Shown here piece after piece: positions 7,861-59,400 of a stretch of 64,000 nucleotides of DNA. Position 1 is the first letter of the stretch. Every line of letters begins with the position of its first letter. The position numbers and the translations under genes are program-made. This DNA is from Buxus sempervirens (taxonomy: Eukaryota > Streptophyta > Magnoliopsida > Buxales > Buxaceae). The stretch is from the NCBI GenBank assembly GCA_947561395.2, contig OX387183.1, forward strand, positions 16,357,402 through 16,421,401, given 5' to 3'. Below the pieces are notes generated by a model that was not told the origin of the DNA, made no database searches, and worked only from the letters and a program-made list of their open reading frames with translations.

Positions 7861-8111
7861 AACCGAAAATAAATTTCGGTTATATAACCGAAAATAAATT
7901 TCGGTTATATAACCGAAATATATTTTCGGTTCATAAAGCGAAATCAAAAATCGCCTGACAGATTTTCTGATTCCGTACTTGACAGAAATTAATTGCTAAT
8001 CGAGTGCAAAAGTAACCGAAATGTTATTTCGGTTACAAACAAATCCCGTATAACCGAAATTAATTTTCGGTTATAATGAAAAATCAGTGTAACCGAAAAT
8101 TAATTTCGGTT
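7861..8111. repeat. Palindrome cluster 1 of LTR U1 (six units)
   Basis: Six 21-bp units of the form AACCGAAAT-N3-ATTTCGGTT or one-base variants start at 7861, 7886, 7911, 8014, 8052 and 8091. The first three are spaced exactly 25 bp apart. The last ends 14 bp before the TATA box at 8126. Each unit contains CCG-N11-CGG. Confidence 0.9.
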
Positions 8112-9380
8112 ACCCTTTTTCTGGCTATAAATAGGGACTCCAGCCATTTGGCTGGGGTTTGCTGGCTTGCCGAATTTTTGCCCCTCCCTACCCTGTTCGT
8201 CCGTCTCTTCTCTACCCTCTCCACCCTTCGAAAACCCCTAAAACCCTAATCCAACCCCTCCCAAGCCCCTTATCCACCATTCTTCTTCATTTCTACCACT
8301 TGGAGAGGATCTTGGAGGACTTGCTGGAGTTGAGAGGAAGCTCAAGCTGCTGTGGAGCCTTCAAGTGGGTTCAAACACTATCCAAGGAGGGTTTCAACTG
8401 TAAGGTATGGCTCCCCACTAAGTTTTGTTCATCATATGTAAATTTTAGCTCATTTGGAGCATGTTAGTTTTCAAGCAGGTTGTGACATGATGTTTGGGCA
8501 TATTATGGATGTTCTTCCCTTGTTTTATTACCTCCTCATAACTTTTATGGTTCATTACCCTTCTATGGTAAGAGAAGGGGGGATTGGCAACATCAAGAGA
8601 GTAGGGTGAGTCGCTTGCGTGGTTTAAAGGGGTCTTGCAACCACCATTTCGACCACTGTTTTGCGGGTTCCCATTTTGTGTTATTTTTATCAAAGAGAGG
8701 AGTATGTTCCTCCTATGCATGCCATCTAATGTACCCTTAAGTAATCCCCATTCTCCTCCCTTCTTTAAGTAGTTTCCCTTAGACTAAGGAAATGATATAT
8801 GTGGGTATTATCATGTATGGAGCATATTGCGTGTCATTGCTTGTTTTTTTTTGGGGTTCGTACATGACCTAGTGGTGGTTTGGTACGTGCATGAGGTCTT
8901 CCATCATTTGCCTCCATCTAGAGCATGTATGTCTATGTTTCATTTCCATGTGAGCATCTTATATTTGCTGTTTTAGTATACTTAGAATGATTTTCTTTCC
9001 ATGTTAGTTAAGTACGGAAAATACACACACCCACTCTAGCATGAAGTTGGGATTTCAAATTTCTTTGTGATTTATTTTCTTGCCCATGTGGTTGCTGTTT
9101 TTAGAATAAGGAGGAGGCCAAGACAGGGACACTCAGTCCCTGTTTGCTTGTGGAGACAAGGGAAGGGAACCCAACCCATTCCCTTGCTGTTTTGATTTTG
9201 GAAAACCCAAAAGGAGGGCCAAATGGCCCCATTCGGACCACTGTGGGCCCACACAGGGGCCCATAGAGACCCTATGCATGCTCACAGACCCCAAGAACCA
9301 GTTCTCTGTCCAAAAGGTGACAAAGGGAGTTTCAGCAGGTCACCTGAAAACTCAGTTCGGTCAAGGGTGTTGTCTGGTTC

Positions 9381-9518
9381 AACCGAAATTGAATTTCGGT
9401 TAAACTAGAATGACAGCATAACCGAAATTCAATTTCGGTTAAACCAGAATGACAGCATAACCGAAATCCAATTTCGGTTATGCTATCTTGCATGCTTAAC
9501 CGAAATTAAATTTCGGTT
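9381..9518. repeat. Palindrome cluster 2 of LTR U1 (four units)
   Basis: Four 21-bp units of the same AACCG-N11-CGGTT type start at 9381, 9420, 9459 and 9498, an exact 39-bp period. The first spacers contain an AGAATGACAGCAT-like sequence. They lie about 1.25 kb downstream of the TATA box in the same LTR. Confidence 0.9.
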
Positions 9519-10551
9519 GCTTTTGAAATTCTCCAAAAACTTGATTTTGAGTGTTGATTGATTTGTTATGATATTTGAACCGACCCGATTGAACTAGTAG
9601 GGTTTCCGGGTCAGCCGGAAACCCAAAATGGTGCATGGGCTCCCAAGCCCAATTGGATCCTTTTGTGGGCCTTTCAACGAGGCCCACCTAGTCCAAGATT
9701 ACTTTACATTAAACAAGATAATTAATGCAAATCAAATGGGCCAAACCCTATGAGGCACCCCAAAGCCCAATAAAAAGTGAAGCATGCTGGCTTAGTGTAA
9801 GAATGGTTTGGCCATGACCGTGGGCATGGGCCTGCCGGGCCCACTAAGCCCATCAATCCAACTGGGTAGGGTCCAATACCCTAACCCATTGAACCATGGA
9901 CCACCCGGTCCAAGTCTAGACCAAGTGGCCCCAAGCCCAAGGTTTAGCCCACTTGGAAACTTAAATAAGATAAATCCAATAAATCACTTGGCAACCATGT
10001 GTGGCCCACCCGATGGGCCCACAAACCAACCCGGCCCACCTTCGCATGAAAATCACTTAAATTCCAACTTTAACCCTAAAGCAAAATCAATCAAACTAAC
10101 CAAAGCCCAAAAGGCCTCCTAGGACTAGACAGAGGCTCACCAAGGGTACATGGGCTTGACTAAGCCCACCAAGGACACCGTGGGCCTTCCAACGGGGCCC
10201 ACCCAATCAGACTCAGATCATCTAATTAAGCAAGATAAAAGCAATTAAAAGGACCCACACCACTCAGGTGGTCCCGCCAGACTCAACCAAATGACATGAT
10301 GGATTAGGAATCGGGTGAGAACCAAAGAGAGTTGACTCAAACCAAGGAACCCATGGGACCCATCATCCGACGGGGTGGTCTGGGGTGTCTGCAGACTTCC
10401 CTAGACCACAACCGAGACCCTACTTAGAATCTCAAAGCCGCAAACCAAGCCCAATAGACCAAATTAGGCACCCAGGTGTCCGCCTGTACCCCATCAGGTG
10501 GTGGCGACTCTGAATTTTCCCGTGCGGTGTTTCTGACGCACGCACACCTTT

Positions 10552-11127
10552 CATTTAAGAAAATGTGCTTTTTGGCCGAGTTTGGGTTGTTAAAGATATT
10601 CCGGTATCTTTTATTTGAAAAGAACAAGTTCTTTTTGGCCAATTACGGGTCGTTAAAGATATTTCGGTATCTTTTATTTAATAGAAGGTGTTTCAATTAC
10701 CTTTTATTTAAGAAAAAAGGTGCTTTTGACCGATTACGGGTCGTTAAAGATATTCCGGTATCTTTTATTTGATAAGAAAAGGTTCTTTTTGGCCGATTAC
10801 AGGTTGTTAAAGATATTTCGGTATCTTTTATTTAATAAAAGGTGTTTCAATTCCCTTTTATTTAAGAAAATGCGCTTTTTGGCCGATTCTGGGTTGTTAA
10901 AGAAGCTCACGGCCGATTCCACAAATACTTTGCGTTGGCCACATTTTTAAACAAAAAAAATGTTTCGGTCAATAAGTAAAAATCAAAATTTTGACTGATT
11001 CTCATCTTACCACCTATGGGTCAAGTGAGACCCATCATAGGACTGGTCCCATGACAAGTATACACTTCCTTATCACGTCTTACTGCAGCGACGTAATGAG
11101 AAAGTGAGGGGGGGGGGGGGGGGGCAA
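10552..11127 (+). repeat. T-family internal region, part 2, with polypurine tract
   Basis: The AT-rich stem-loop array resumes right after the target duplication of U1 and ends near 10900. It is followed by a conserved 3' block (GGGTCAAGTGAGACCCATCA, then TACTGCAGCGACGTAATGAG) also found at 44080-44163 and 52430-52520. A run of about 17 G forms the polypurine tract just before the 3' LTR at 11128. Confidence 0.8.
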
Positions 11128-17788: not shown

Positions 17789-19184
17789 TCACAGTGAAGA
17801 TCTGGTAAAACTTATGCCGTCAACACTAGGATTGGGTGAAGCAAAAGCAAGGAAGTCCTCATCACGTTCCAGCACCGCCATTATTTGTTCATCCAAGTTC
17901 ACCCGTGCTTCTATTCCATTGCCCTCTCTAGTTTCCATCAGAACAACGAGATTGGTCGTTCCTTCGACTCTATCATTGATATAAGATAACCATGTAGGCC
18001 TCCCCCAGCCAAAATCAACTTCATAGAAAGGCAATTTGCACGCACTCCTTCATAGAAAGGCAATTTGCAGATATATTCTCTTCAGAATATATCTGCACCC
18101 ACTCCTCCATGTCTTCAAGAAATCTCATAGTCCCCTCATCACCTTGAAATTCTCTTAAATATTCACTGTCAATTTTTCTATTAGCTTCCCTCAGTTGAAG
18201 CACCAACTCAACCAACTCGCTCTCGCTCTCGCTCTCATTCCTCAATGATACGACCGATTCCCAAACCATATTTCCGATGCTGTTTCTTGGCAAAGCTGGA
18301 ACCATCCTCCCTCGCATGTCAATCATTTGTTTCGCCACAAAAGGAAGTCTTTTTGGACCTGGTTTTGCTCTAAACGCAGCCATGATACGTTGGCAGAAGA
18401 GCGACGACACCACTTCAGTCCTCGTGGGGTGCTTCACACTACTTGATGAAGAGATGTTGTTACTCACTTTCGCCTTGAGAGCAGCTATGCTTGCGCCTGT
18501 AAACACAAACCTTGCTTTCCTTATTGTAGTGATCAACTCCTCTTTGGATGACTCAACATTTACATTTGGAAACAATTCAGATAAATCCCTTGATGGGTAG
18601 AAAGAATCTTGTAAGAAGATGGGAGACACAGTTTCACTAGAACCACAAGAGATCGAGGCCCAATCCTTAACAAATTCCATCAAAGATGATCCATCAATGA
18701 TCTTGTGTAGAAAGCACATGCCGATCGCTAGTCCACCGCAATCAAAGTTGTTCACTTGAATGGATAATTGAGGTAAACTATGATAAGCTGGTTCGCTGAC
18801 CGTGGGATCACATGGAAGGAAATGATTAAGTTCCTCAATTCCAGGTTTGCTCAGAAACTTGGAAAGGTCGCAGTTAACATGGGCTTCTATATAATGAGCT
18901 CCTTCGTCGTTGCAGTTGATGATAGTGGAGGAGCCATCTTTCAGCCTTCCGGCAAATGGATAATATCGGGACAAGGTCTCGGATAAGGATTTCTTGAGCT
19001 GAACAGATCTCTTGGAAGTTTGGATTCCTGGATTGTTGCTTACTAATGCACGGTAAAAGAAAACAAAAGGTTCATAAGTGAGAGGAATGACCTGGTCAAG
19101 AAGGGAGAGCTTAAAGATTCTAAGGTGAAGGGGAGTTGGGAAGGATGGTTTGATGGTCTCTCTTGAGAAGATTTCAACCTTCAT
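17789..19184 (-). pseudogene. BAHD acyltransferase copy 2, C-terminal part out of frame
   Basis: The 387-codon frame starts at 19184 with MKVEIFSRETIKPS and holds the catalytic HKIID (H160, D164) and LSRYYPFAGRLKDG. It ends at 18021 before the DFGWG motif. That motif (MPFYEVDFGWGRPTW) and the normal C-terminus (FASPNPSVDGISFTRSSL) sit in another frame at 17789-18034. The cause is a local rearrangement at 18020-18092: a 21-bp segment occurs twice, 29 bp apart (18020-18040 and 18049-18069), next to a perfect 10-bp inverted repeat with a 4-nt loop (about 18069-18092). Compared with copy 3 the local length change is +7 bp. Without the DFGWG motif and final sheet region, full activity is unlikely. 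A truncated product remains possible. Confidence 0.88.
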
Positions 19185-20402
19185 CTTCTTCGCTTTCTAC
19201 GAATGGGAATTCTTTCGCAGGCTGATCTGCTCTCAGGCTTGTCTGCAAATGGGTTTGATGAGATAAATATTATTTAGGCTTACCCAATGAAACCAACATC
19301 ACATTTAAATTTTATATAAATAAATATCATTTTTTTCAGGCATCCTCAGCCCCCATGTGGTCGTCAAGAAAACAAAAAAGAGAAAAAAGGTTTCTCTTAT
19401 ATGGTTTGAAGAACTTCAAGCATGTCCATTTCCGGTATGTCTCCCAACTTGAGATTATTAAAATGGAAAACCCCATCAAAATGAGACTACTTTCACGTGC
19501 TGTGACTACATTATTTTTTTATTTTTTATTTTTGGTAATACGCTGTGACTACATTATTTACTAGAATGCTATTTAGTAAGGCACACTACCAAAAAAAAAA
19601 AATATTTAGTAAGGCACTTATCTCATTGGGACGGGCACCAGCCTCGAAAGGCGGGTACCATTTTTCTTCCTACTTTGGTAAAAGACAAAAGGCTAATTTT
19701 ACTACTACGTTTTTTGGGCACTCTGTTGGCCTCTCGGTAGACGTGCGCTACAGAATAAAAAAGTTCAAAATGATAACTCAAGTCTTTAACTTCTTCTGAT
19801 ATGCATGTCTGCAAAATGATAAAATGGGTGGTTGAGAGACGTACTACTTGTTATTTTTTTTGTTTGAAAGAAAATTAATCACCAGCAGTAAGCTGCCATT
19901 AGCAAATGTTTTTAATAAATAAAAAAAATTAATTAATCACCAGCTGTAAGCTGCCATTAGAATACAATAAGCTAACGTGTACAAAATACACACCTGGACC
20001 AGCAGATCTTTCAGCAGAGGACGCTTTTATACTCTTTCTTGAGCGATATTTCTTTTTTTGGTAAAAGACAAAAAAAAACCTGCCTGCCATCTAGCACTCG
20101 ATCATCAGATGATAGGCAAAGGTGTACTAAGAGAGAGAGCGATACTGAGACAGAGAGAGCGATACTGAGACAGGGACAAACTTTGGATGACTCAAAATAT
20201 AATGGAAAAATTATTGAAAGGACCATCTTTTCGAAACTAATTGTAAAATAACCCATTGAAAAGCCATTGGGCCAAAAACCACCAACTTTTTCAAAACTAA
20301 TTGCAAAGTGGTTCAAAATCACTCTAGCACATTTTTTAGTGCCCAAAATGCTCTTTCTTATAACTTCGATTGAGTGCCAAATCAAACTAAACGAATGTTT
20401 GA
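19185..20402 (-). promoter_or_regulatory. Promoter and 5' flank of BAHD copy 2
   Basis: A TATATAAA-type box lies on the minus strand at about 19310-19318, about 130 bp upstream of the ATG, as in copy 1. Homology with the copy-1 flank runs through the whole stretch. Open frames here are short, differ between the two copies and show no domain. The Pack-MULE-like element starts at its distal end. Confidence 0.65.
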
Positions 20403-22176
20403 GGGAAAATTACGGTACGGTCTGTTTTTTTGTTAAAAAAGAAATTTTGATCCATGCTATTTATTGTATGACAACTCCAAAACCTTTTTACAAAATTTTT
20501 GACTATTTAGGCTTCCCCGTCAGCATCTCCTATTCTCTAAGTGAAGTGAGACAAATTTGCGCTCTTCAATTGGAGAACCAATCTTCAATCATTAAACCGG
20601 TCAACCCTCTGCTTAAACTAAATCGGTCCACTCTTATTTTATTTCATTTATTTCCCAACACCAAACCAGACGTTGAAAACCTCATCCCTTCTCCACCGTC
20701 CGACCCTTCTTCTTCATTATTCTGGTGAGAGCAACTGACAGCGGGATCTTCTAGTGGTGGAGTCTACCAGCGGCGGTGAGACCCTTCTCCCTTCTTCTCC
20801 CCATTCTCTACTTCACATTGTCATCATTCAAAACCCTGTATAATATGGCCTGTGAACAAAGGAATTTAAGTTCTCGAAGCCTTTGTCATTTCTGTATATT
20901 CTGAACTTCATATGCATTAAAGAGTACTATGTAATGTTGGTAGCTGTTTTGAAAGAGTTGATGATGCTTTACTCATGTAAGAATATTTTGGAAGTTCTTC
21001 AAAAGCACACAATAGTCGCTACAAATTAATGAAACGTAGAACTTCATAAATTCTATTAAGTATCAAGCAACATGATGGAAACTTTAGCTTTCTGCGTGTT
21101 GAATTTTTCTTTCTTCTCGTGTAAAATTCTGGGTTTCACCCCCTAATTCACTGCTCGTTGAGAATCATTGTCATCGTCCAAACTCTTTGAACCATCTCTC
21201 AAGACATGATTACGAATGTTTATTTAACCTTCTCTATAACTGACATAACTGTATCAAAGATACACTATTCCTCAGAGATATCAAAGATTAGTTGGACTAC
21301 TGGATATATAACCTTCTCCATAACTGACATTGGATGGATGGCAGCAACAGTCATTCAATTGCAGCATGTGGGTAGGGCCAAGAATACAAAAATGTTGTGG
21401 AAGAGAGCTCCCTCTTTAAGATGAGGCTTCAATGCCTGGTTCATGAATCTGAATTGATGCTTTTGATAGGCTGGCTTCAAGCTCATTTAACTCATCCAAG
21501 TCCAATTCATCATCATCATCGTCTGGAAGCACTTCTTCAGTGTTTGAATTTGCAGTGGCTGAGGTACTTGATCCTTCTACAATAGAATTGCCATGTGCCT
21601 GAAGAATCCAATCAAAATGTAATAGGTTAAGAAAATAACCTATTAATGATACTTTTTGGTAGATTCCATTGCCAGTTGCTCTCACTGGAATAAGGGAGAA
21701 GAAGCAATGGAAGTAATGGAAGAACTTGAAAGATTGGGTTTTGAATGACAACAATGTGAAGTAGAGAATGGGGAGAAAAAGGGAGAAGGGTCTCACCGCC
21801 GTTGGTAGACTCCGCCACCGGAAGATCCCACCGCCAGTTGCTCTCGCCGGAATAATGACGAAGAAGGGTCGGATAGTGGAGAAGGGAAAAGGGAAGAGGG
21901 TTTCAACATCTGGATTGGTCTTGGGAAATAAATGAAATAAAATAAGAGTGGACCAGTTTAGTTTAAGTAGAGGGTTAACTGGTTTAATGATTGAAGATTG
22001 GTTCTCCGGTTGAAGAGGGCAAATTTGTCACACTTCACTTAGAGAATAGGAGATGCTGACGTGGAGGCCTAAATGGTAAAAAACATTGTAAAAAGGTTCT
22101 GCAATTGTCATACAATAAATAGCATGTATCAAAAAATCTTTTTTAACAAAAAAACAGACCGTACCGTAATTTTCCC
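20403..22176. mobile_element. MULE-type element with about 440-bp terminal inverted repeats (Pack-MULE-like)
   Basis: The left arm (20403 to about 20838, starting GGGAAAATTACGGTACGGTC) is the reverse complement of the right arm (about 21738-22176, ending GACCGTACCGTAATTTTCCC). The flanks AATGTTTGA (20394-20402) and AATGTATGG (22177-22185) match at 7 of 9 positions, fitting a Mutator-type 9-bp target duplication. The copy-1 flank at about 16575 shows the same locus without the insertion. No transposase is seen. The centre carries a probable captured host exon. Confidence 0.85.
21416..21599 (-). pseudogene. Probable captured terminal exon inside the MULE
   Basis: On the minus strand a 3' splice-site-like context (pyrimidine-rich stretch then GATTCTTCAG) is followed in phase by AHGNSIVEGSSTSATANSN, EEVLPDDDDDELDLDELNEL and EASLSKASIQIHEPGIEASS, then a stop: about 60 residues. 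The mix of an acidic run, low repetitiveness and a clean stop looks like the last exon of a host gene. I do not recognise the parent. It could also be chance coding potential. Confidence 0.5.
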
Positions 22177-24391: not shown

Positions 24392-24396
24392 ACGTA

Positions 24397-35026: not shown

Positions 35027-35039
35027 TTTTTCAAAACCT

Positions 35040-35956: not shown

Positions 35957-35969
35957 TTTTTCAAAACCT

Positions 35970-38632: not shown

Positions 38633-39556
38633 GAAAGAAGACGCTCTCAGGCTTGTATATGCGTGAAGATGTGATGAGAAAAAACTATAAACTTAATATA
38701 AGGACTCAAATCTTCTCCTCTAAGGCCAAGCTGTTAAAAAACCAAACCTTTCTTTTATTCACAAATCCCCATGTCAAAGACCAAAAAAGGCTACATTTGT
38801 AGTTTAATAAGGATCCTTAAAGACGATCACATCTTCGTATAATGGGCTAATCTTTTTTTTTTTTCTGGTTTTTATAGTGTTAAATGGAATGGAAATCTCC
38901 TCGTACATTTTTATATTTTCGTACTAAATTACTCCTCGTAAGTATCAAGGTCACGATTTCAAAATCTCTCCGGTATGTAAATGAGATTGCTTGGAGTTGA
39001 AACTTGAATGGGAATCACCGACTGCATTTCCTCCTTGATTAGATTACTGCATAGAAAAGCCAGCGTCGCATGCGCACCTGCTTACGTTACGTTACGGGGA
39101 TAAAGAAAACAATGCATCAAAGTCAATGAAGTACCCGACCCAAAAGAATAAAAAATTGTTAATGGAGTCTCTGCTAAAAGAAATGCATTATTCTAGAATT
39201 GCTAAAACAAAATTTATAAAGAATAAGGCAATTGTAGTATATTACTCAAACCTAATTGACAACTTGACACTAGAAAATAAGTCACTTTCCTTAAAAAAAA
39301 ATTGTTCTTGCAATTGGTTCAAATTTTACCAATTGAGATATCTGGAAACAATATTTTATTATTTCTTCAGTTGAAGAGGCCCTTATTCTATTTTTATATT
39401 TCTATATTCTTTCTAGATCCAAAGACTACAAATTAATTTCAAATAAAAAAACATGGAATAAATCCATAGCTAGGTTCAATATATTGAAGCTACTTTATTG
39501 CGAGCTTTACTGCGTCTTGCTCCTCTTGAATTGTGTACAGTTCAATCACATGAGTG
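38633..39556 (-). promoter_or_regulatory. 5' flank of BAHD copy 3
   Basis: The first 70 bp still resemble copies 1 and 2 (GAATGGGAATTCTT and CTCTCAGGCTTGTAT on the plus strand). Beyond that the similarity is lost, so the promoter of copy 3 differs from the duplicated promoter of copies 1 and 2. No clear TATA box was found and no other gene is seen. Confidence 0.45.
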
Positions 39557-43299: not shown

Positions 43300-44163
43300 A
43301 AATGTTATGTAAATCGGTTGTAAACAAACGACCGATTAATTTAAAGTTTGGTCATAAGAATGACCAATTTTTAAGTTTGAAAAAACAGTTGAAAAAGCAA
43401 TGCAAGCGACCATGATTACTTACAAAATTAAAAAATAGTCATTGGCTGCATGTTTCATTAAAGAAAAATGTATTTTCGACCGTAATAAAAAGGTTCGTTA
43501 AAGTTACTTTATTTGATAAAAGGTATTTCAATTGCTTTTTATTTAAGAAAAAACACTTTTGGCCGTAATGATTACGGGCCATTAAAGTTATTTTATTTGA
43601 TAAGAGGTGTGTTTGATGCCTTTTATTTAAGAAAAAGGTACTTTCGGCCGATTATGGGTAGTTAAAGCCTCTTCATTTGATAAAAAGGTATTTTAATTGC
43701 CTTTTATTTAAGAAAAAAATACTTTTGACCGTAATGATTACGGGCCATTAAAGTTATTTTATTTGATAAGAGGTGTGTCTGATGCCTTTTATTTAAGAAA
43801 AAGGTACTTTCCACTAATTACGGGTCGTTAAAGCCCCTTCATTTGATAAAAAGGTATTTTAATTGTCTTTTATTTAAGAAAAAATACTTTTGGCCGTAAT
43901 CATTACGGGTCATTAAAGTTATTTTATTTGACAAAAGGTGTTTCAGTTGCCTTTTATTTAAGAAAAGGGGATTTTTGGGTCGATTTCTAAGTTGTTAAAG
44001 AAACTTACGGCCAATTCCAAGGGTATTGTGAGTTGGCCACGCTTTAAAATTTTGACCGACTCTCATCTTATCACCTATGGCTACGGGTCAAGTGAGACCC
44101 ATCACAGGGCTGGTCCCATGACAAATATACACTTTCTCATCACATCTCACTGCAGCGACGTAA
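43300..44163 (+). repeat. AT-rich tandem array of the T-family internal region
   Basis: Units with AAAAGGTATTT...GCCTTTTATTTAAGAAAA and CGTAATGATTACGGGCCATTAAAG recur about every 120 bp up to 43970. They end in the conserved GGTCAAGTGAGACCCATCAC and TGCAGCGACGTAA block. This is the counterpart of the 6650-7271 array. Confidence 0.75.
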
Positions 44164-45120: not shown

Positions 45121-45768
45121 TACCCATAGCATTGAAGAGGATGAGGTGTATAAGGATGATCAGATCGATTTCAAAAAAGTCAAAGACCACAACATGCATT
45201 AATTGCTGTTGTAAGCACCTCATTTTTGCGCTCCCGAAAGAGCCAGAAATGCAAACCCTAAATAGAAAGTCAAACCATAAGGGATGAAAATTTGACCTTT
45301 TGATCAAGTGGTGATTGGCCACCCTGCTTTATCCCATTGGATAGAGCATCCCGACACGAGTCCAACGCAACTAAGTTCGCTGGAATCGGAGTCCGGATGA
45401 AGGTTCTGCAGGCGGTCAAACTTAAGGGAGAGTCGAAAGTTGACTTTTCCTCGAACCCCGTGCCAAGTGCTTAGCCCTATGTCATTGGATATAGGGCTCC
45501 GATACGAGTCTAACGCAATTGAGTTTGCTCAAATCGGAGTTCGGATGAGGGAGATATGAGCTGTCGAAGTTTTCGAGCAGCAAAACCAGAAACTGCACAC
45601 GTGGCGCAGGAACTGCACACGTGGCAACCAACGCAGCAAAATATCTCAAGGACTAAATCTTAAATATCCAAAATTCGCAGGGACCAATCCGTATATATCC
45701 GAAAGTGTCAAATCAGTCGAATCGGTCGAATCGGTCAAGTCGAAGGGCAAATCCGTAATTTTTCGATT

Positions 45769-46016
45769 TGTATCCAGTCAAATATACCGGATACACTGGC
45801 TTCCCTTCATGACCGGACTTGAAGGCCGGATACAAGAAGATTTTCGGGCGAGATTCCCGCCGATCGCCCGACAAATTCGCGGCGGCATTAATTTTTTGAA
45901 TGATTATGTCTTGTATCCGGCATTGAAGACCGGATACAAAGAAGCCTCTGTGTATCCGGACTTGAAGACCGGATAAGAGGGCACCTTAGTGTATCCGGCC
46001 TGAGTTGCCGGATACA
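45769..46016. repeat. Palindrome cluster 1 of LTR U2
   Basis: Four 27-bp units TGTATCCGG-N9-CCGGATACA or close variants at 45769-45795, 45912-45938, 45951-45977 and 45990-46016, plus one with a decayed left arm near 45809-45834. Each contains CCG-N11-CGG. The last ends 10 bp before the TATA box. Confidence 0.9.
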
Positions 46017-47999
46017 TTAAGTTGCCTATAAAAAGGAAACAGCAGCCTAATTTCCGGGGTTGGCTTGGTTTTGGCTGTTTTCCACTTCTCCCCCACTGTG
46101 CCAGCTCCGAAACCCCTTCCTTTTGGCCTCCTTTGGCTCCCCAAACCCTCCAAGCCCTACTTCAAGGATTTCCCACTCCCTCTTCCCTTCTTCTTCTCCA
46201 TTTCCTCACAAGCAAGAACAAGACTTGCTGCTGTTGGTGGTGGGAGGGAGCTGCTCCAGCAGTCTCTCAAGCTTCGAAAGGGGACTCCACGCATCTCATT
46301 CCAGGGTTCTAACCCTAAGGTATTATTTCTCGTCACCATTTGTTTCACATATATAGAGATGAAGTGATTTTGAGGAGATTTCAAGGGTCCTATGTTGGTT
46401 GTTTAAAATGCATCTTTTAATATGATTTCCATGTGTCCTCCTTCTACTTTCTCCCCATGAAATGCATCCTGGGGTAGGGAGAGTGAGTATGGTTTCGAGA
46501 GATAGAGGGTTTCCATTTGCTTGAGGTCTTAGAGGTATTTCTTTTATGCCATGTGCTGCCATGACTTGGCTCCATTTCGAATGGGGGAGGGTGTTTCCCC
46601 TTAGCTTTTTCATCCATTGTACCCCTTTATTGATCTCCCCCTCTTTCCCTTCTCTAAAATAGGTGTGCTTTGGTGATTATGTGTTTCTTTTAAGCATGAA
46701 GTTGATAGTGTGGTATGCTTGTCCCAGGTCGGTCATGCATATATATTTATTTGCTCTGCTGTAGGCACACTCACACACCCACCATAGTCAAAGCATGTAA
46801 GATAGGTTGGATTATTATTTTCTCACCACTTTACTTGTTTGTTGTTGTGCGGACTGGGGAGAACTAAACAGGGGCACCTAGGTCCCCGTTCATCTACTGA
46901 AAGTAGCCCAAGAATAGGAGGAGGCAGCACCCTAAGCCTCCTCCCCTAGGCTGGAACCACCAAGGTCCCCAAAGAAGGCAAAATTGAGGTGACTCCTCAC
47001 CTCCCGAACCACTGTGGGCTCACACCGGAGCCCACACAATCCCTAGGACACCCTAGGAGACCCAAGAAACCGACCCTGTAAAACCCCAGTTTTGAGTAGA
47101 AAAAAAAAACTAAATAATAAAATAATAAAATGAAATAATAATAATAGAATAAAAATAAACAAATAATAACAGTAGATAAAATAAAAGTATATGCACATAT
47201 GGATGTATGTACAGGTTAAATCAACTTTATTATTGCTAGAAATTTGTGGTCATTAGGGTTAAAGAAAATGAGGTGGAAATATTTATACGTAGGTCATATT
47301 CGGATCGGAAATAAATAAAAAATGGGTCAATGGTTAAAATCCGGGAAAACCCTACACTAAGGAGGGGTAGAAAGGGGATTCCCAGGGTAAATGGTGAATT
47401 AGGTTAAACCCTCACGGTGTATAAATAGGTAACTGATATAAATTTTCGGGGTTTTGAGGGAATGTTGTTGCTCTGAAATTAGGGCGGCTACTATGGCGAT
47501 TAGGGTTTCGCTGGGAAGAGATGAGAACCGCAAGAGTTGCTAGGAGTTTATTGGAGTCGGATTTCTGCGGGTTATCTCTCTCGCGAGCAGAGGAATTGTT
47601 CGGCTACCATTTCATCTTCGTGCGCACCCGGAAATCGCGATCGGCCGAATGGGGAAGAAGCTGTTGTTCTGGGATTAAGCGCATACGGTGAGTAGCACTG
47701 ATTTACAACTGGGATTTGTGTTTTCTGTTTCTCTCGAGATTATTCTGATGCATGGTTTATATATCAACTGATAGTGTGAGTTTTTCTGGTTTTCTGGTTT
47801 TCGGGAAGTTACATGAACAGAGTCTCCGGATTTAATTTTATAATTGAAAATGAAAGTGTTTAGATTAATTCCAAATATGGTTGGGAAGTCTTCTGGGAGT
47901 ATTAGGAGTGTATTGGAGTAGTTACAGACCTTCACAAACCGGCCAGTCATGTAGATCTCAAAATAACAGAGAAATGAAAACCACAGGGGGTATCCGCTC

Positions 48000-48265
48000 A
48001 CCTCGCGCTCACCGGCGCTCACCTCAGAGGTAGGCGCCCCGTTAATAACGACCTACCGCCGAGCTCGCGCCCACCTCACGCTCATCTCGCGCGAAGTAGA
48101 AAACGAGGCGCCCATCTCGCGCGAATCTAGCGCCCACCTCACGCCCATCTCACGCTCATCTCGCGCTCACCTAGCGTCGGGTGAGCGGCAGGTCGATTTT
48201 ACCCATTTTCTTCACCGCCGACCGGCGCTCACCTCGCGCCCACCTCAATAGGTGAGCGGCAGACC
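48000..48265. repeat. Copy-specific GC-rich cassette of S-family LTR (copy C)
   Basis: About twenty short motifs of the type GCGC-TCACCTC or GCGC-CCACCTC follow each other, in a surrounding that is otherwise AT-rich. The block has no counterpart in copies A, B or D, which hold other GC-rich sequences at a similar distance from the LTR 3' end. Confidence 0.75.
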
Positions 48266-48869
48266 TATTTTGCTTACCGAAATGGAATTTCTGATTTGAC
48301 CAAGAGTATTTGCATTACTTAGGGGTTAAACCACTTCACTATTCACTTGGTTAGGAACCTGGGAAACCATTTTGCCTATGAAATTAATAGAGGAAAAATT
48401 TGTGAACATCTTATGAGTTTTAAGTTGAGTTTAGGTTACTTATGAGTATTGTGCCGGACACCAAACTAGTAAGAGTTACCAGTTACTTTTCCTTGTTCTA
48501 TACACTGTTTTGATTGAGAAGTTCTTGTATTTTTGGTTTCACTTGTTGGAAACTTTATACGTATTGAAAGGTTTTCTTTGGTATGAATGGATTGAGTTTT
48601 ACTTTCATATGACTTGTGTTACGGAAATGAGAAAATACTGAATGTACTTGAGGTACTGCTTGGTCCAGAGGGACAGGTGATGAATTGTGATGAGTTCTTA
48701 CATGATGTGGAATGAATGGTTTTGTTTGATATTGAAATTGAGATTATACGATGTTTACTGTTTTGGTCTAGCTTGTCCTGGATCCAGAGTCTAAGCTTAG
48801 TAATGTGATGTTATTGTTGGTTGTTGGAATTGCATGGCCTTGTGTGTTGCCACGACCGGTGTAGAGCAG

Positions 48870-49293
48870 CCAGAAGCCCTGAGTAGGCCTGGTTGTCAAT
48901 GCAGAAACCCGGGGAGTAGGCCTGCATTGGATGACGAAACCCTGAGTAGGCCGTCATTTCAGAGTATCCGAAACCCTGAGTAGGCCGGAACTGTGTACAT
49001 GGAGGTGTGGAGTGTCTACTTGGCATGTTTAATTTATCAACTAAACGATAGTCATGACATTGACCAATGTTGGTATTTGATTTTGTTTGACGTGATATGT
49101 TTTATTCGCTGGTTGTTGGTATTTATGGTTCATGGAATATTGTTTACCGATTATTGGGTATTGTTCTTCCCGCCGGTGTAGAGCAGCCAGAAACCCTGAG
49201 TAGGCCTGGTTGTCAATGCAGAAACCCGGGGAGTAGGCCTGCATTGGATGACGTAGTCATTTCAATATCCGAAACCCTGAGTAGGCCGGATAT
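48870..49293 (+). repeat. Duplicated stem-loop array with AAACCCTGAGTAGGC loops (copy C)
   Basis: Set 1: CCAG / CTGG (48870-48892), AATGCAG / CTGCATT (48898-48928), ATGACG / CGTCAT (48931-48957) and TCCG / CGGA (48967-48989). The loops are AAACCCTGAGTAGGC or near variants. Set 2 starts at 49187 with the same first two stems; its last stem is ATATCCG / CGGATAT (49265-49293), longer and different from set 1 but perfectly paired. Confidence 0.88.
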
Positions 49294-49906
49294 ACATTTG
49301 GAGGCGTGGGCATGGTTATGAGAAGACTTGGTGTTATGTGACATTGGTATATCTGGAATTATATCTTGAGATACAAAATTATGCTTATTTGCTATGTTGT
49401 TGCCAATTAATCATTATTTTATCGATATCTTCGGGATTGGAAACGGATTGTTATTGCTTGATTTACCTGATGGTTTTCCGCACTGATATGAATTGGATTA
49501 TTGAAGTTTAGTCGGATTATTCGGAATATGCGTATTATCGTCATTGTACATTGTTATAATCATGGCATGTTTTAGAACTGAAATAAATGTATTTGTGCAT
49601 GCATGTGCTGCTCACTGGGATATTCGTATCTCATTCCGTATTGTTTTGTTTTGTTTTCAGCTGCTCCTGGAGAGGACGATACTTGCGGGTAGTTACTTGG
49701 TCATGTGAGTTTTATTTTAGTTTGGGGAATATTTTAGCGCACTCTGTTATATAGTTATTGTTGTATTCATGTTTTTCATTCACTCTGATATTGCGATCCT
49801 GTGTTTTATAATAACCTCTGGAGACGAGTTACGGGTTTTTCATGTGACTCGGATCCGAGGCGTTACAGACCCCATAGGAAAAATCCAAAAAAATGGATTC
49901 TGTGTG

Positions 49907-50011
49907 TTGATCCGGCAACTCAGGCCGGATCAACTGAAGCCCACTTGTAGCCGGCCAAAGATGCCGGATACACAGAACCCTGTGTGTAACCGGCATCTCA
50001 GGCCGGCTACA
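49907..50011. repeat. Palindrome cluster 2 of LTR U2
   Basis: Three 27-bp units with different outer arms: TTGATCCGG / CCGGATCAA (49907-49933), TGTAGCCGG / CCGGATACA (49946-49972) and TGTAACCGG / CCGGCTACA (49985-50011). The 9-nt centres CAACTCAGG and CATCTCAGG are reverse complements of the cluster-1 type CCTGAGTTG, so cluster 2 is inverted relative to cluster 1. Confidence 0.85.
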
Positions 50012-51076
50012 TTGTCAGATTGCATTTTTTGCCATTTTCTGATCTTGTGTGATTTCTTTGGTTTGTTTGATCAATCCGAGCAAGCCAGTAGGACCCGGAA
50101 ACCCAAGATGGGCCATGGACCGATCCGGTCCAAATTTATTTCCAGTGGACCTTCCAACGGGGCCCACCAAGCCCTACCAATTCATTTTTGCTTAATTAAG
50201 GTAAATAAAAGATTTGAGCGGGCCAGACCACTTGAGGCCCACCCAAGCCCTATTTGGGCCATGCATGCTTAAAGTAGATTGTGGTTTGGCCGAGACCACG
50301 GGCAGGGCCTGTCGGGCCCACTAAGCCCATGAACCCAACTAACTTAGGGTTTCAAAACCCTAACTCAGGAAGTCTTGGGCTTTCAAGCCCAAGCCTAGGT
50401 AAAGGGCCCCAAGCCCAATACCTGGCACACTTTGGCAAAGGTTAATAAAAAATAACTCAAAACACTCGGCAACCAGGGTGAGGCCCACTCAAGGGCCCAC
50501 AAACAGTCCCGGCCCACTTTGGCATGAAATCCACTTAAATAATCCAACTTAAACTTTAAAGAAAAATCAATTCATTTGAACCAAAGCCCAAAGGGCCTCT
50601 CAGGCTAGACTGAGGCCCACTAGGGGTATGTGGGCTTAACCAAGCCCACCAAGGGATCCGTGGACCTTCCAACGGGGCCCACCCAATCAGACTCATCTCA
50701 CTTTAAACTAAAGAAGATAAAATCAAGTAAAGGGACCCACACCACTTTGGCGGTCCCGCCAGACTTAAACAAAAACTGAATGCTGAATTAGGAATCGGGT
50801 GAGTGAGAGACCAACTGAGTTGACTCAAACCAGGGAAATTTTATGGGACCCGTCACTGGACGGGGTGGACTAGGGTGTCTACGGACTTCCCCAGACCGCA
50901 ACCGAGAACCTACTTAGAATCTCAAAGCCGCAGACCAAAAGCCTTAGTAGAAGAACTTAGGCACCCAGGTGTCTGCCTGCACCCCATCAGGCAGTGGCGA
51001 CTCCAAACAAATCCCAAGGCACGCGTCGTTCCGCGTGCGCCTCGTCGTGCAACCGAAATCGGGTGCGCACAGCTGT

Positions 51077-52533: not shown

Positions 52534-53895
52534 TGTTTACACCCGCCGTAGCCCGGCAGTAGTGTTTTACGGTCACGTATATCTTTTGACCGATTTGTGT
52601 CCTACCACATACGGGTCAAGTGAAACCCATGTTTACACCCGCCATAACTCGGTGAAATCGGAGTAAACAGGCGTCTAAGGATAATATATATGTTTATTGG
52701 GTAAACGATGGTGAATGATTTTTCCATTAAAGTCATTAAAGGAGTTATCATGGCATGCGCTACTTTATTGGGTTTGAGGAAAATTGTTGGACGTTTGATC
52801 AACACCATGATACTTTTATTTGATAAAAGGTATGTTTAGTTGCCTTTTATTTATGAAAAGATGCATTTGACCAATTATGCCTTTTGGCCGATTACGGCTC
52901 ATTAAAGATACTCTGGTAATTCTCTAAAGACGTGGAGAGTGGGGTACCCCACTTTCTAATAAAAACGTGGAGTGGTTATATAAGGTGGGTTCAACTTCCT
53001 AAAAGTGAGTCGTTGGGAGACTTTGTGGTAAAGCAAAACGGGCATGCAGACATGGGAAAGGGATCTCTCGAAGATCGTGCAAGAGTGGGACGTTGAGCAA
53101 CCGTCAAGGATCGGTTATAAAAGGCACAAACTCGAAGAGCTCCAGGACACAATCCATCCAACCGCAACCGGTTATAATATTATTTTGATCATCCGTGATC
53201 TTTATCCCCTCTCCTACACTGTAGTCAGAAGGATAAACTAGGACTTCTCTCATTGATTCCAGTCGCAGTGACATCTTAGACCCCTCTTTACTCCGATTAA
53301 CACCAGAATCCTGCCACCGGAGAGTAAGTTGAGGCCGCCCCTGATTCGCAGTTCTGTGTTTACAGAATCCCGAGCAGCCGGTCCCGAGACTCGCTCTGAT
53401 CACGCCAGGTGACTTGTGTATTTTCGGGTAAGCAGCAATCCAAGGTGAACCCCCTGAATTGGCTTTGCTAGCAGCCGCCCCCTTCCTCCTGTGCTTATAC
53501 ACGATTATGGCTATAAGACCAGGACAGGCTGGTCCTGCAAGCCCTGTCAGTTTTCTTTTTACTTTTGTTTCCCTTTTGAGGATTATCTGTTGTCGCTTTC
53601 GGCCCGTCGACCGATTTTATAATAAAGGATTTGTGTGCCATTAGTTGCTTTCGCTTTCAAACACTTACAAGAACCCAAACGAAGACCGAACCCCTAGTCT
53701 TCATATCATCGCCTGACCGATTTTATTACAGGTGACTTGTAGTATGACTAAACCGATCCCGATTTAGATTCGGAAAAGGTGCCCGGGGTCAGGGCTCGAC
53801 CCGAAATCATTGTATCAAACGATACTGGCACGCCCATGTAGGGACACATCATCAACACCGATACATGTCCACACCGGCCCAATTTCGGAGCAACA

Positions 53896-54072
53896 GATTC
53901 TCTCCAAAAAGATAGGAATTTTGAAAGAAAAGAAAATTCACCATCACTTATCACTATTCACATCACCCACCCACCCCACCACTAGCACCATCCACCATCA
54001 CCACAACCCACCACCCACCATCACCCGTCACCACCACCATCACCACCACCACCCACCATTGCCAACCACCAC
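53896..54072. repeat. Host remnant with (CAC)n-type microsatellite
   Basis: About 40 bp of unique sequence is followed by a degenerate CAC/CCA-rich tract (about 53940-54072). It separates the T-family element from the next LTR. The histidine/proline-rich open frame over it is a repeat artefact. Confidence 0.75.
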
Positions 54073-54185
54073 TGTAGACACCCCAAATTGCACCTCAATA
54101 TGAGAGAATACTCAAAAGGGGCTTTAAATGTCTTATTTGAGCATTGACATTTGTCAAAAACTCAAAAACTCTCAAAAGTGGTGCT

Positions 54186-54451
54186 AACCGTACTGAATGA
54201 ACGGTTTTTGTAATTTTGGTCTCAACCGCTCTGTATGTGCGGTTGTAACCGCACACACAGCACGGTTGATATCCATGCTTGTTGCGTGAGCTGCCACGTG
54301 GCTTCGCGAAGCTTTGGCCGTTGAGCCACGTCGACAGCAATCATGACGAGCGTAACTGAATTGAACCGCCCTGTATGTACGGTTTGGTTAATTTGCATAG
54401 AAACCGTACGTATAGTGACGGTTCTGTTGAAACCGCACTGAGTATACGGTT
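54186..54451. repeat. Palindrome cluster of the 54-kb LTR (six units)
   Basis: AACCG-N11-CGGTT units at 54186-54206, 54224-54244, 54247-54267, 54364-54384 and 54431-54451, and a 22-bp variant at 54402-54423. Most centres read CTGAATG, CTGTATG or CTGAGTA. The base pair just inside the CCG/CGG changes from T-A to C-G between the units at 54186 and 54224. The cluster ends about 200 bp upstream of the TATA box. Confidence 0.88.
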
Positions 54452-56483
54452 TTGGCTGTTTCGGGGATTTGCGAAATGGCTCGATCTCTGAGCCTTATTT
54501 ACGCATATTACCTCTCTCTCAGGGACTTGAACTCCCCATTTCACCCTCCGAAACTTGCTGAATTACTCCAATTCAAGCCTTGGAGGAGAATTGGAATAAT
54601 TTAGAAGGCTTTTTGGCCTACCCTTGGGACTTTTCTACCCCTGGCTTGGCCTATAAATAGAGGGGTCTTCCTCTTGCAAATGGCTAAGAATTTGAAGCAC
54701 TGAAGCTCTGCTGGAAGAAGGGAAGCTCTGCTGGATTGTCTACTCAACTACTCGAGCTACTAAAGGTAAAGCTCATTTGGGTTTATTGCTTCCTCTTTAC
54801 ATTCCAACTCCCAACTTCTACCTTTCTGTAGTGTAAGGCCAGTTTGTGGTTGTTTGCAAGCCCCAAACCCCTTCCAAAGTACCTGGGAATCCTCTCTAGC
54901 CGTAAAACGTGAAGAGAGAGCCTTGGGAAAAGGAAGGTGGAATGGATCCTCTAGGCTTAGAACCCACAAGTGATGAAGAGCATACTGTGTAGTTATTTTG
55001 AACCTATGGATGTTTGTTTTCTGATGTTTTTGCATGTGTTTCTGGAGAAGTTGAGTGAATCCTTGCTCTCAATAGCAATGGATTCCAAACTCCTCCTAGA
55101 GAGTTGATTTCCACCTATTCACACACTTTTCACCATTTTCATCAAATAGGCTAGTTCTAGGATTTCCGCGTTTAATACGGGAAATCTGAGATTATTGGCT
55201 TAAAAATGAATCTTAGAACTTCATGAGGGGGTTTTTGCTGATTTTCAAGTGTTTTGGTCGAATTCACTTGCACTAGTTTTGGTTTTCTCTTCAAAAACTT
55301 CAAAACAGGGCAGCATCTATGGCCTGTCTTGGAATGATTATAACTTCATCCTCCGGATGAATTTTTGAGTGATTCCAAAGACATGTGATAGACGGGAAAG
55401 CGTACTTCATATCTGGAAAATTTTGTTTACTTTTATGTAGCCAATTTTTGACACCATCTGTTCAAAGTTTGTAAGTCAGTTCAGCCTAGATTGCTGAAAT
55501 CGCCGCTTTGATGGTGCACCGTTTGTTCAATTTTAATCCGTTTTGAGTGATTCTAATTCCTGAGTTTTCCCTGAGAAGTCTATTTTCATTTCCAACTGGT
55601 TTTAGCAGATTTTGATCTGTTTTGTGCCTTGGGTGCTCAGTTGACTCAGAGGTGCTCGCTGGCATAGTCCAAAGCTAACCTGTGGTCTTCTAGGCCTGTT
55701 CAAGAGAGCATACAAGTCACATCCAGATAGAGTTTGGTGTGGGGTTTTTTTCTTTGGAAATATGGCACCACATACTTCCTCCATACCAATTTTCATAGAT
55801 TTTTATTTAGCCAAACTCCACGAATAGGATTTTGAAAATGCCTACTCAACACTTTTTCCAAGTTATAACAGCAGATTTCAGATGTGGATATCTCTCTCAT
55901 TTTTAATCGGATTGAGCTGAAATTTTTACTGTATACTCTACTATATAACAGTGTTCAAATGGCTTTCATTTCATTGGATTTGGATTTAAATTGAGTGAGT
56001 TATGGTTAATCGAAGTTTTCAAGCTCTTTTGGTCTGATTTCTCCAGATTTGCCTTAGCTTGATTTTTCTTCATTTTTACTTTGATTTCCATTCACTCATG
56101 AAGTTTTAGAAGTGATGAATCCATGAAGAGAGTCTAAGTTCATTGGACTTCTCATGTGGAATGGTCACACACATCGTGCTTGTTATAAGCACCTCTTTGT
56201 TCATTCTCATTAGCAAACAATTTTTCAAGCATAAGCAAGCATTTGGCAACCGTCTTAGACGGATGAGTGGGGGTGCCTAACACCCTCCCCTGCTCATAAA
56301 TAATTCCCCTTACCTAATCTCTGGATTTTTCCTTATCTTAGAGCTACTTTAGCTCTATTTGGCTTCTATGAACCCTTTGGTGCCCATTCACACCTTAAGA
56401 TGGATGGTGGCGACTCTTTACATTAATCGATCCCCGCGTGACAATATCGGAAGTCATCCGAGATGACATTTCCATGTCTCACA

Positions 56484-59400
56484 ACTGGCGACTCTACTGG
56501 GGACCTTTGTGGAATTAAGCCATGTTTTGCATGCTTAGTCTTTGTTTGATTTTATTGATTGTTTGTTGTTTTGATTGATTGTAATAAGCATGCTGATTGG
56601 AATGCTTCTGCTTATAGAGAATGTAAGACCTTAGACAATATGCCATGTGATGTGTGTATGCTTTGGTTATGTTCAAAACCATGTTAGGAGACCTAGCTAG
56701 TTTTACCATGCTAGGCTACCATATTTATATGATGAGCATGTTTTGATTAGGATTTTAATGACATTGAGCATGAGATAAGGTTTTTTTTTTTTCAAGAGAT
56801 ATTTTGAATATGTCAAAAGCATGCTCACCATGGTTGAATGCTTTTTTGTGTAAAATGATAACATGCTCCCATGTTTACATGATTTGTGAGAATGCATGTT
56901 TAGAGTGAGCATGCTAGGTTTGTATTACCTTGATATGCTTGTGATTCCTTATAAAATTTGATCTCTATATCATGCCTTGGTGAATGTGTATGGCTTGCAT
57001 GGTTACGAAAAAAGAGTGGCAAGGGTGGGACGTTGTGTTGAATGTGACCCACTTTTCCAAATGCACTTGTGCACCTTTTTCTTTTTTACACAGCCTACCT
57101 ATTATCCTATAGGAAGTTGAACAAGAATGTGTGTTGCTTGGCGCACCGAGGTCGTTACTTCGGGAAGCGAAAGTGAAAACATTCACCTTAGAGGCTTTGA
57201 GCCAATGATGTGATGACATGGTGGATCTAGAATTCTGGTCATACACTAGGCTTGAGCTCTAAGTTTCCAATGAGCCAAAACCCAAAACCCCTACACGAAG
57301 GTGGAGAAGCACCCTTTTGGCCAAAATAAACCAAATGCGATGGGGAAAGGGCTTGTAATAAGGGAAGGCCGTCTTGCATGGCTCAAGTGACCCAAGGTAT
57401 GATATGGACACCATTTTGAAGGTAACAAGGTATTTTCATTTTATTTCTTGTAAAGACCTCTATACTTCTCAAGAATCAAGCTCATGGTGTCCATTTGTTG
57501 GGATTTTGTTTTTCCCAAAGAATTGCTGTATCCTAGGATTGGTGTAGCCCATAGGACAAGTTTTAACTCTTTTTAGAGGTCATTCTACCCAAATGCCCAT
57601 AGGAAGCAACCCAAAGTCCAAGATCCATGCATTGGGTGTCCATTTTGGGTGGGAGCCTAGGCCCTCCTTTGTTTAAATAATACTAATCCTTTTCTTTGCA
57701 GGAATGTTGCATGGGAATGACACTCAGGGGCTGCTGATGTAGAGGGCATCCTCTAATTTTAGTTTAGGATTTTTCTTCCTTTTTCTCAAGCCCAAGGAGG
57801 CTAAATTGTAATTTTATTTTGATTCATGCGCTGGAAGGCCAATTTGTATTATAATGCATTTCCTTTATTGTAAAGGATCTTTTTGTGCATATTTGTGGTC
57901 TCCTCATGCAATCTCATGAAATCCATGGTATAAGTGGGTTTTTAGTACCATTTGATGTGTCAAATGTCCAATTTGGGGCAGTCTGGAAGCCACCCAATGG
58001 TGAACACTGTGTTTGGGCAAGTAATCAAGCTAATAAAACCAATTGAAAAAGGAAACAATTCGAAAATCTGTTTTTTGGCTTAAAACCGTCCTGAGTATAC
58101 GGTTTGTTGTATTTTTGGTGCAACCGCAGGATTTGTGCGGTTTGGGCCAAACCGTTCTGAATGCACGGTTTTAAGCCGAAATTCTGTTTCAGCCTTGCTT
58201 ATCAAACATTTCTGGGTCCTTTCATCCCTAAGTCATATAAGCAAACATGCAGAGGCTCCAAATAAGATAAATGGCATTTAAACCATCCCAAATCCACCCA
58301 AATCAAGAGATTAAGGTCATTTTGAACATATTCACCTAAATTGAACAAATTAACTCAACTCAAAGGTGAAAATGATAAAATAAAAGTCGGCTCAAACCAA
58401 AAAACAGGTCAAGCACCTCAATTTGGGGGTTAAGTCCACATTGGGCTCTTTTTGTCCAATTTGACCGCTTAACCCATCTTAAGTGAAGTAAATGATTCAA
58501 AGAGAATTGGTTCAAATGACCAACCTAATCATACTTCAATCTCAAGAATTGAACTTGGAGATCACAATAAGTTTCCAAAACATGCTAAGCTTAAGGTGTA
58601 ATAAAATTTATGAAAGAAAGCTCAACTCTTTTAAAATGGGGCAAATTCCAATCAAAAATCAACCTTTAAGAAATCTTTAATCATAAAGTGTCCAAACTTT
58701 TAAGATTTCTTCCAAAGAGCAATTTGTGGGTCACTTGGAAACCTTTGAATTCCAAGCAAATAATCATTTAAAAATCCAATGAAAGAAAATTTCAAATAAA
58801 TCACCACCTTAAAGGCAAATTGAGTCTCTTTTTAACTCAAAACACCTAAGGGGGGAAATAAAAAATATTTTAGGCATCTGAAAGCCTTGGAATTTCAGAA
58901 AATCAAACTCATAGGACCCCTGGAAGCCTGAAATTCCAGATCTTTTTCAAAATCTTCATAGGCCTTCTAAAGCCTGAATTTAGAAACTCATAGGATCCCT
59001 GGTAGCCTGAAATTCCAGATCTTTTTTAAATCTTCATAGGCCTTCTAAAGCCTGAATTTAGAAAATCATAGGCACCTGGAAGCCTGCGTAATTTCAGGGG
59101 GCTGTGGAAGCCTCAATTCCAACCTTGGTCGGTCTTTTTCGCACCAACCAATTCATAGGTTCCTGAAAGCCTGCGTAATTTCAGGAGGTTGTGGAAGCCT
59201 TAATTCCAAAGCATAAGCCCTTGGAAGCTTGCGTAATTCCAAGTCTCGAGTTTGTCTAAGGACTTTTACTTTGGACATCTCATCTTTTGTGGGATATGTT
59301 GGAAGCCCTAGAATTTTCCAATATTGGTTAGTCCTTTTCGTACCAACCAATGCATAAGCCTTTGGAAGCTTGCGTAATTCCAAGTTGTGATTTGTCTAAG

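Follow-up and report, generated by a model that had tools for sequence, protein, structure and literature searches.

Within a stretch of 64 kb from the genome of Buxus sempervirens (contig OX387183.1; this whole stretch is the window in what follows, and all positions refer to it), four long terminal repeats (LTRs) of retrotransposons, named U1, U2, W and E, carry arrays of short palindromes in which CCG and CGG are separated by exactly 11 nt. This regularity, CCG-N11-CGG, is real and unusual; statistically it is firm in three of them (U1, U2 and E), and in W it is suggestive. The bases around the fixed anchors (the arms) differ between elements, and the comparison of U1 with U2 gives evidence of a concerted change of these arms, based on small numbers. 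The LTRs, their TATA-like boxes and the arrays are the following.

7272 to 10546, forward strand: U1, a solo LTR with TGTAAGCACC...GCACA ends and the 5-bp target duplication CCTTT
7861 to 8112: U1 array a, six AACCGAAA...TTTCGGTT units with CCG-N11-CGG at 7863, 7888, 7913, 8016, 8054 and 8093
8126 to 8134, forward strand: TATA-like box of U1, TATAAATAG
9381 to 9519: U1 array b, four units at 9383, 9422, 9461 and 9500, with a 39-bp period
40256 to 42076, forward strand: W, a solo LTR with TGTAGACACC...TCTCACA ends and the target duplication GTTGG
40359 to 40463: W array, exact units at 40361 and 40417, an altered unit at 40445 (GCG for CCG) and a doubtful one at 40389 (CTG for CCG), with a 28-bp period
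40674 to 40682, forward strand: TATA-like box of W
45210 to 51071, forward strand: U2, a solo LTR with the target duplication GCTGT, interrupted by the nested solo LTR N
45768 to 46017: U2 array a, TGTATCCGG-N9-CCGGATACA-like units at 45774 (CCA for CCG), 45813, 45917, 45956 and 45995
46027 to 46035, forward strand: TATA-like box of U2, TATAAAAAG
47077 to 49867, forward strand: N, the solo LTR nested within U2, with the target duplication GACCC; outside the array system
49906 to 50012: U2 array b, three units at 49912, 49951 and 49990, with a 39-bp period
54073 to 56483, forward strand: E, the 5' LTR of the element at 54 kb
54186 to 54451: E array a, AACCG-N11-CGGTT units at 54188, 54226, 54249, 54366 and 54433, and one N12 unit at 54404
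54652 to 54660, forward strand: TATA-like box of E
58084 to 58170: E array b, in the leader, units at 58086, 58124 and 58152

The spacing of 11 nt stands out in the window as a whole, where CCG-N11-CGG occurs 33 times. The neighbouring spacings N9, N10, N12 and N13 are found 10, 1, 9 and 2 times, the other spacings from 3 to 25 have 1-13 occurrences each, and over the range of 0 to 30 every spacing except N11 remains within 0-13. A ranking of all 64 triplets, each paired with its reverse complement at spacings from 0 to 30, gave the top z-score to CCG-N11-CGG (33 versus 2.85 expected, z 17.8), with CGC-N18 as the runner-up (12 versus 0.98 expected, z 11.2). The sites are located mainly in the elements: 28 of the 33 fall inside the four LTR/leader regions and 5 outside them, while 27 are units of the arrays in the four LTRs and the one leader, and 56434 is a singleton within these regions. 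The first-pass annotation had described this frame in the four LTRs and suggested testing N11 against the spacings around it; the frame is confirmed, and within the window N11 passes that test.

The regions of U1, U2, W and E were also compared, separately, with 300 dinucleotide-preserving shuffles each, at spacings 3-25. N11 is the commonest CCG/CGG spacing in every one of them, with counts of 10 in U1, 7 in U2, 2 in W and 9 in E. The highest N11 counts among the shuffles were 3, 4, 1 and 2, and with any spacing allowed the maxima were 3, 4, 2 and 3, respectively; in U2 the test is limited by N24, which gets up to 5. Thus, with every spacing allowed, U1, U2 and E stand out from shuffled sequence and W taken alone does not, being weak with two exact units. 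Some units are tandem duplicates, so the N11 counts are not independent; what carries the case is less the raw z-score than the families and the comparison of arms and spacers.

A consensus scan, in which the anchors were scored like any other position, separated the units from the background in U1 (ten units with 17-18 of 18, next match 14) and E (eight units with 14-18, next match 12), and by small gaps in U2 (seven units with 17-22 and one with 14, next match 13) and W (units with 10-14, next match 9). The scan adds three units in the N11 frame with one anchor base changed each, namely 45774 in U2 and 40389 and 40445 in W, where 40389 is doubtful because it scores 10 of 14 versus 9 for the best background match. 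If both altered units are counted W would have four units 28 bp apart, a period that Tandem Repeats Finder also gives for 40398-40467. With 17-bp units at this period the half-sites of W would alternate every 14 bp, so that CGG-N11-CCG would appear between neighbouring units too.

The anchors are preserved in a sequence environment that is poor in CpG. In the 30 N11-frame units 58 of the 60 anchor CpGs are kept, a figure that is inflated because most units were found through those very bases; elsewhere in these LTRs and in the E leader the observed/expected ratio of CpG is 0.35-0.52, and in the whole window it is 0.58. The symmetry around the anchors is specific to the family. The units of U1 show symmetry at positions three to ten counted from the axis, those of U2 mainly in the outer arms (a profile lowered by one unit that was taken one base off, at 45775 for 45774), those of W (three units) in the inner arms, and those of E at AACCG/CGGTT, with a complementarity of 0.12 and 0 at the two innermost positions. 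Common to all four families are CCG/CGG, partly by construction, and a tenth position that is also high (0.88-1.00). Such family-specific symmetry around constant anchors would be expected of a dimer with a fixed half-site distance and variable further contacts. The earlier description of a fixed spacing with freer flanks is confirmed. The further statement that the arms are different in each LTR needs to be narrowed, as U1 and E both have AACCG...CGGTT and differ only inside.

The positions of the arrays provide a link between the LTRs. U1 and U2 are 82% identical over the first 470 bp and 75% identical over some 900 bp near the other end. Relative to the TATA-like box the sites of array a start at -263, -238, -213, -110, -72 and -33 in U1, the final CCG thus beginning 33 bp ahead of the box, and at -253, -214, -110, -71 and -32 in U2. 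Four pairs of sites match in this distance within 1 bp, which leaves two sites of U1 and one of U2 unmatched. An alignment of the two LTRs with MAFFT did not bring the arrays into frame, and therefore their positional homology rests on the TATA distances and the spacers. W and E have in common the start of the LTR, the surroundings of the TATA-like box and the last 250 bp (70%), with 53% identity over the whole alignment (847 of 1610 columns). The first unit lies 105 bp (W) and 115 bp (E) from the start of the LTR and the last unit 229 bp (W) and 219 bp (E) before the TATA-like box. The alignment puts the W array against the second module of E (54366 onwards) and leaves the first module unaligned, so that the units of W and E are not paired one to one. 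Considering the common positions in U1 and U2 and the common general layout in W and E, the ancestry of the arrays is probably shared: the support is good for U1 and U2, and for W and E it is likely.

The second cluster is located within the LTR in U1 and U2, and in the leader, 1.6 kb past the end of the LTR, in E; among the N11 matches in W there is no second cluster. It had been placed at least 1.2 kb downstream of the TATA-like box in U1, U2 and the E leader. The cluster is indeed present in all three, but the distance has to be corrected for U2, where array b is 3.9 kb downstream in the window and about 1.1 kb without the nested N (47077-49867).

The most informative comparison is that of arms and spacers in U1 and U2. 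At the four matching sites 19 of 60 bases agree over the 15 non-anchor positions (0.32), a value that falls inside the range of 0.13-0.48 for the arm identity between units of different families; for any U1-to-U2 comparison of units the agreement is 85 of 240. Within an element it is 72 of 90 (U1) and 58 of 90 (U2). Three of the four spacer comparisons between the a arrays nevertheless indicate relatedness (with shuffle P values of 0.004 and 0.005, and 0 of 1000 for the comparison that includes the TATA box). The 18-nt spacers that follow three corresponding units are related with z 2.7, 2.7 and 2.6, whereas the arm identity at these places is 0.33, 0.40 and 0.20. The reverse is found between arrays a and b of U1, 1.2 kb apart, where the arm identity is 0.84 and the spacers are unrelated (mean z 0.34, for three of the six units of array a); the arm identity is likewise 0.84 with all six. 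Thus, the arms of U1 and U2 go with the element and their spacers with descent, since arrays a and b of U1 share arms only and the a arrays of U1 and U2 spacers only. Arrays a and b of U2 are less clear than those of U1, with an arm identity of 0.55 and spacers that are related too (z 1.8). In E, part of the spacing of array a (38 and then 28-29 bp) recurs in array b and one pair of spacers is related between the two (P 0.005), which may be explained by the duplication of a module. The first-pass annotation would have been contradicted by one ancestral array with ordinary divergence. Half of that applies, as the ancestry is probably shared, and half does not, as in U1 and U2 the spacers were partly kept while the arms were replaced as a set. 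Overall, its interpretation is partly supported: the pattern of spacing and flanks stood, and the dimeric reader and its rapidly evolving partner stay at the level of inference.

We favour, with a probability of roughly 0.4, the reading that the arrays are operators for a dimeric CCG-reading protein, the flanking specificity of which co-evolves with each element in a VANC-like manner. Each palindrome would be bound by one protein dimer. Its two heads would read CCG and CGG at a set distance, spanning 17 bp between their outer edges, and additional contacts would read the family-specific flanking or inner bases. Four to six such sites (two exact ones in W) precede the TATA-like box, and three or four more form the second cluster of U1, U2 and E, 1.1-3.4 kb downstream of it, in the LTR or the leader. 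The protein may keep the LTR promoter active or free of silencing. Within an element the units have arms in common, and these are unlike the arms at corresponding positions in its relative; the binding specificity would therefore have changed and the sites of the element would have followed. For a factor so specific to an element, the simplest owner would be the element lineage itself, which would make it a VANC-like protein acting in trans in LTR retrotransposons. What the data show is the frame, the positional homology of U1 and U2, the dissociation of their arms from their spacers and the anchor CpGs kept in LTRs poor in CpG; the dimer, what it does and its encoding by the elements we infer.

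The analogy relates to Arabidopsis, where the targets of VANC21 and VANC6 are described as short motifs, arranged in tandem within the non-coding sequence of VANDAL elements, which differ between families and whose units evolve together (PMC5735166); the arrays vary in this concerted way also among related VANDAL families (PMC5735166, PMC10398659). The likeness to this system (VANC21 motif YAGTATTAY), functionally the nearest precedent, consists of dense arrays in non-coding regions of a transposable element, motifs that differ per family, joint evolution of the units and a partial origin from tandem repeats (PMC5735166). Motif arrays in non-coding regions are present in U1, U2, W and E, and related families with different motifs that changed together are seen in U1 versus U2, albeit in small numbers. 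VANDAL is, however, a Mutator-like DNA transposon, whereas the elements here are LTR retrotransposons, judged by the LTR ends, the 5-bp duplications and gag. The sites of Gal4-type zinc-cluster proteins, a fungal family, have the form CGG-N11-CCG: the triplet pair is likewise exactly 11 nt apart, but in the opposite, everted orientation. A Gal4-like reading and an ARF-like reading were considered and set aside. Finally, heat-responsive PHRE LTRs resemble the present case in their regulation by a host factor through the sequence of the LTR promoter, while the available part of the source makes no mention of fixed-spacing dyads with element-specific arms (PMC8656106).

The elements that carry the arrays may belong to the Tat/Ogre lineage of Ty3/gypsy, as suggested by LTR length and primer site, the pol of E lying beyond the window. 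W, E, U2 and U1 all have long LTRs, as in this lineage (1.8, 2.4, 3.1 and 3.3 kb, respectively, with U2 counted without N); large LTRs are described as typical of Ogre (PMC9289625), and the average Retand LTR is given as 635 bp (PMC11963269). The E LTR is followed by TGGCGACTC..., which by appearance is like a primer-binding site, and the primer-binding site of Ogre is reported to be antisense to tRNA-Arg (PMC9289625). The order in E is 5' LTR, primer-site-like sequence, long leader, gag open reading frame (ORF) and G-patch ORF, after which the window ends before pol. W has an empty-site counterpart without the insertion at 52534-53895, 95% and 97% like its two flanks. N contains a short GC-rich tandem repeat, GCGCCCATCTC, with period 11 at 48108-48166. 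The remaining features of E are:

from about 56486: primer-binding-site-like sequence TGGCGACTCTACTGGGGAC after the E LTR
59796 to 61142, forward strand: gag ORF (Retrotrans_gag, E-value 2.4e-9)
61903 to 63633, forward strand: ORF with a G-patch domain (E-value 1.4e-6)

Extra ORFs, which could supply a factor of this sort, are reported to be frequent in Ogre and Retand (PMC6317226, PMC11963269), with plant-mobile-domain ORFs in 57% of Ogre and Transposase_28 ORFs in 23% of Retand elements (PMC6317226), and Transposase_28 is predicted to bind DNA (PMC11963269). In the most far-reaching version, LTR retrotransposons of the Tat/Ogre kind would carry a VANC-like system of their own: an element-encoded dimer would read the constant CCG-N11-CGG, its arm specificity would be re-tuned between families, the promoter-flanking arrays would follow, and each family would unsilence only its own promoters. 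We consider this version doubtful. It would bear on a question that a paper of 2026 leaves open, whether proteins of LTR retrotransposons shape the methylation of those elements themselves (PMC12844716). The constant frame with swappable arms would offer a direct handle on it, as the bait sequences are in hand and the partner is expected to change along with them. If the partner were a host factor, the arrays would still show LTR promoters tracking a factor family. A literature search of titles and abstract openings yielded no description of fixed-spacing dyads in plant LTRs, which is not proof of absence.

Several observations weigh against the arrays being operators of this kind. The sample consists of four LTRs, probably two related pairs, and the units were selected by CCG-N11-CGG, so that the agreement of the anchors and the symmetry are partly built in. 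W by itself is not significant across all spacings, because shuffles attained its count of 2 at some spacing. U1 array b arose for the most part by tandem amplification of a single unit, and its arms therefore amount to one observation. Between the a arrays of U1 and U2 the long spacer that precedes the -110 unit has no similarity (P 0.59). The spacer tests are few and uncorrected: P was 0.02 or lower for 16 of 91 pairs, including one pair from unrelated families. The motifs of VANC21 are short and in one orientation, and 'palindrom' is nowhere in the main text of PMC5735166, whereas the units here are two-fold dyads and no same-orientation array is seen, although the E centre CTGWRTG is directional. 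Another repeat family of the window has CCG-N4-CGG and AAAGATA-N6-TATCTTT palindromes, and therefore N11 is not universal. Domain scans of 89 stop-to-stop ORFs (at least 85 aa, E-value thresholds 0.1 and 0.01) revealed no extra ORF for a DNA-binding protein with a plant mobile domain or Transposase_28, in a window where three of the LTRs are solo and E leaves before pol.

The main rival of an element-linked protein is a dimeric host transcription factor that measures the half-site distance, either of the LOB-domain (LBD) family or a MYB dimer on AACCG/CGGTT, whose sites were recruited by the LTRs and for which the arms would reflect paralogues or neutral flanks. We regard this as quite possible. 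The MYB core is AACCG-like or AACNG. AACNG is present in both half-sites of the U1 and E units and not in those of W and most of U2; AACCG itself is missing from 7 of the 8 U2 units and all W units. LBD proteins are plant-specific zinc-finger proteins (CX2CX6CX3C) that form dimers and are said to discriminate palindromic DNA as 'molecular calipers' (PMC10118128, PMC7178066, PMC12461856); N11 falls within the spacers of 3-26 bp that are taken to suit the dimers (PMC12461856). Yet the published LBD box GCGGCG, which the two strands of the window contain at five places (20770, 34846, 37307, 45879 and 55501), is in none of the units, even though 45879 is within the span of U2 array a. It is also in line with a host factor that the preferred spacing and orientation of R2R3-MYB dimers vary by paralogue (PMC11995187) and that LTRs may hold various factor-binding motifs (PMC12844716), but the replacement of arms at fixed positions is not itself explained by it. 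Functionless turnover, in which tandem duplication, conversion and hairpin-templated correction create and homogenise palindromes, seems unlikely. Some units are clearly tandem duplicates (U1 array b, with a 39-bp period and 86% matches), several spacers within arrays are related, the shared arms and spacers of the two U2 arrays and the one shared spacer pair of the two E arrays would fit, and palindromes are common in the neighbouring repeat family as well. Duplication should, however, bring the spacers along, whereas U1 arrays a and b share arms and not spacers, and the a arrays of U1 and U2 spacers and not arms; turnover predicts neither a single anchor spacing across the four LTRs nor the retention of anchor CpGs where the LTRs are otherwise poor in CpG.

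The palindromes might alternatively act as hairpins in the genomic RNA, array a at its 3' end and array b at its 5' end, for packaging, stability or translation. A full-length transcript would contain both arrays, and energies of -4.6 to -18.9 kcal/mol were predicted for 29 of the 30 N11-frame units (29-nt windows, without a shuffled control), with -1.0 for one W unit. This is nevertheless improbable: among eight predicted structures (first and last unit per family) the loops vary from 3 to 7 and the stems vary as well while CCG-to-CGG stays 11, the inner bases of E are rarely complementary, and array a is directly before the TATA-like box in U1 and U2. Chance or a bias of the reader is hardly credible, as it fits the two exact units of W and is contradicted for U1, U2 and E by the z ranking and the region shuffles.

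Relatives of the elements were sought with sequence patterns. In viral contigs the patterns for the gag and G-patch ORFs gave 8 and 4 matches and no tblastn relative, the LTR-start pattern gave 0 matches there, and the search with the primer-site pattern gave 0 matches. The LTR-start pattern did match two contigs of bacterial metagenome-assembled genomes, one in a stretch without CCG-N11-CGG and one with 6 in 8000 bases, which were taken as chance. A two-unit AACCG pattern matched one viral contig (L003:100-260), where tandem hairpins, TACAACCGTTGCRGCGCAACGGTTGTA, fit AACCG-N11-CGGTT; they are GC-rich, of other sequence, and look unrelated.

Palindromes of other geometry are found in tandem arrays of another repeat family (6691-7272, 10546-10903 and 43453-44000), with AAAGATA-N5/7-TATCTTT at 9 places and AAGGTG...ACCTTT at 4. 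The GGCCGATTACGGGTC-like unit has CCG-N4-CGG exactly at 6852, 7206 and 10730, and loose matches at 11 places in the window. Single CCG-N11-CGG dyads at 2785 and 44169 occupy corresponding places in two copies of the repeat ACCCGCCRTAGCCYGGCGGT, some 220-250 bp upstream of a TATA-like sequence, and related imperfect copies are near 39880 and 52546. In addition, the window contains acyltransferase-family genes and a fragment on the reverse strand, about 19 kb apart (1-597, 18024-19196 and 37226-38692); the two longer ORFs have PF02458 and the fragment is 89% like them in DNA. A foldback-like inverted repeat is located at 20403-20836 and 21736-22176, with arms of about 440 bp that are 89% alike and about 900 nt between them.

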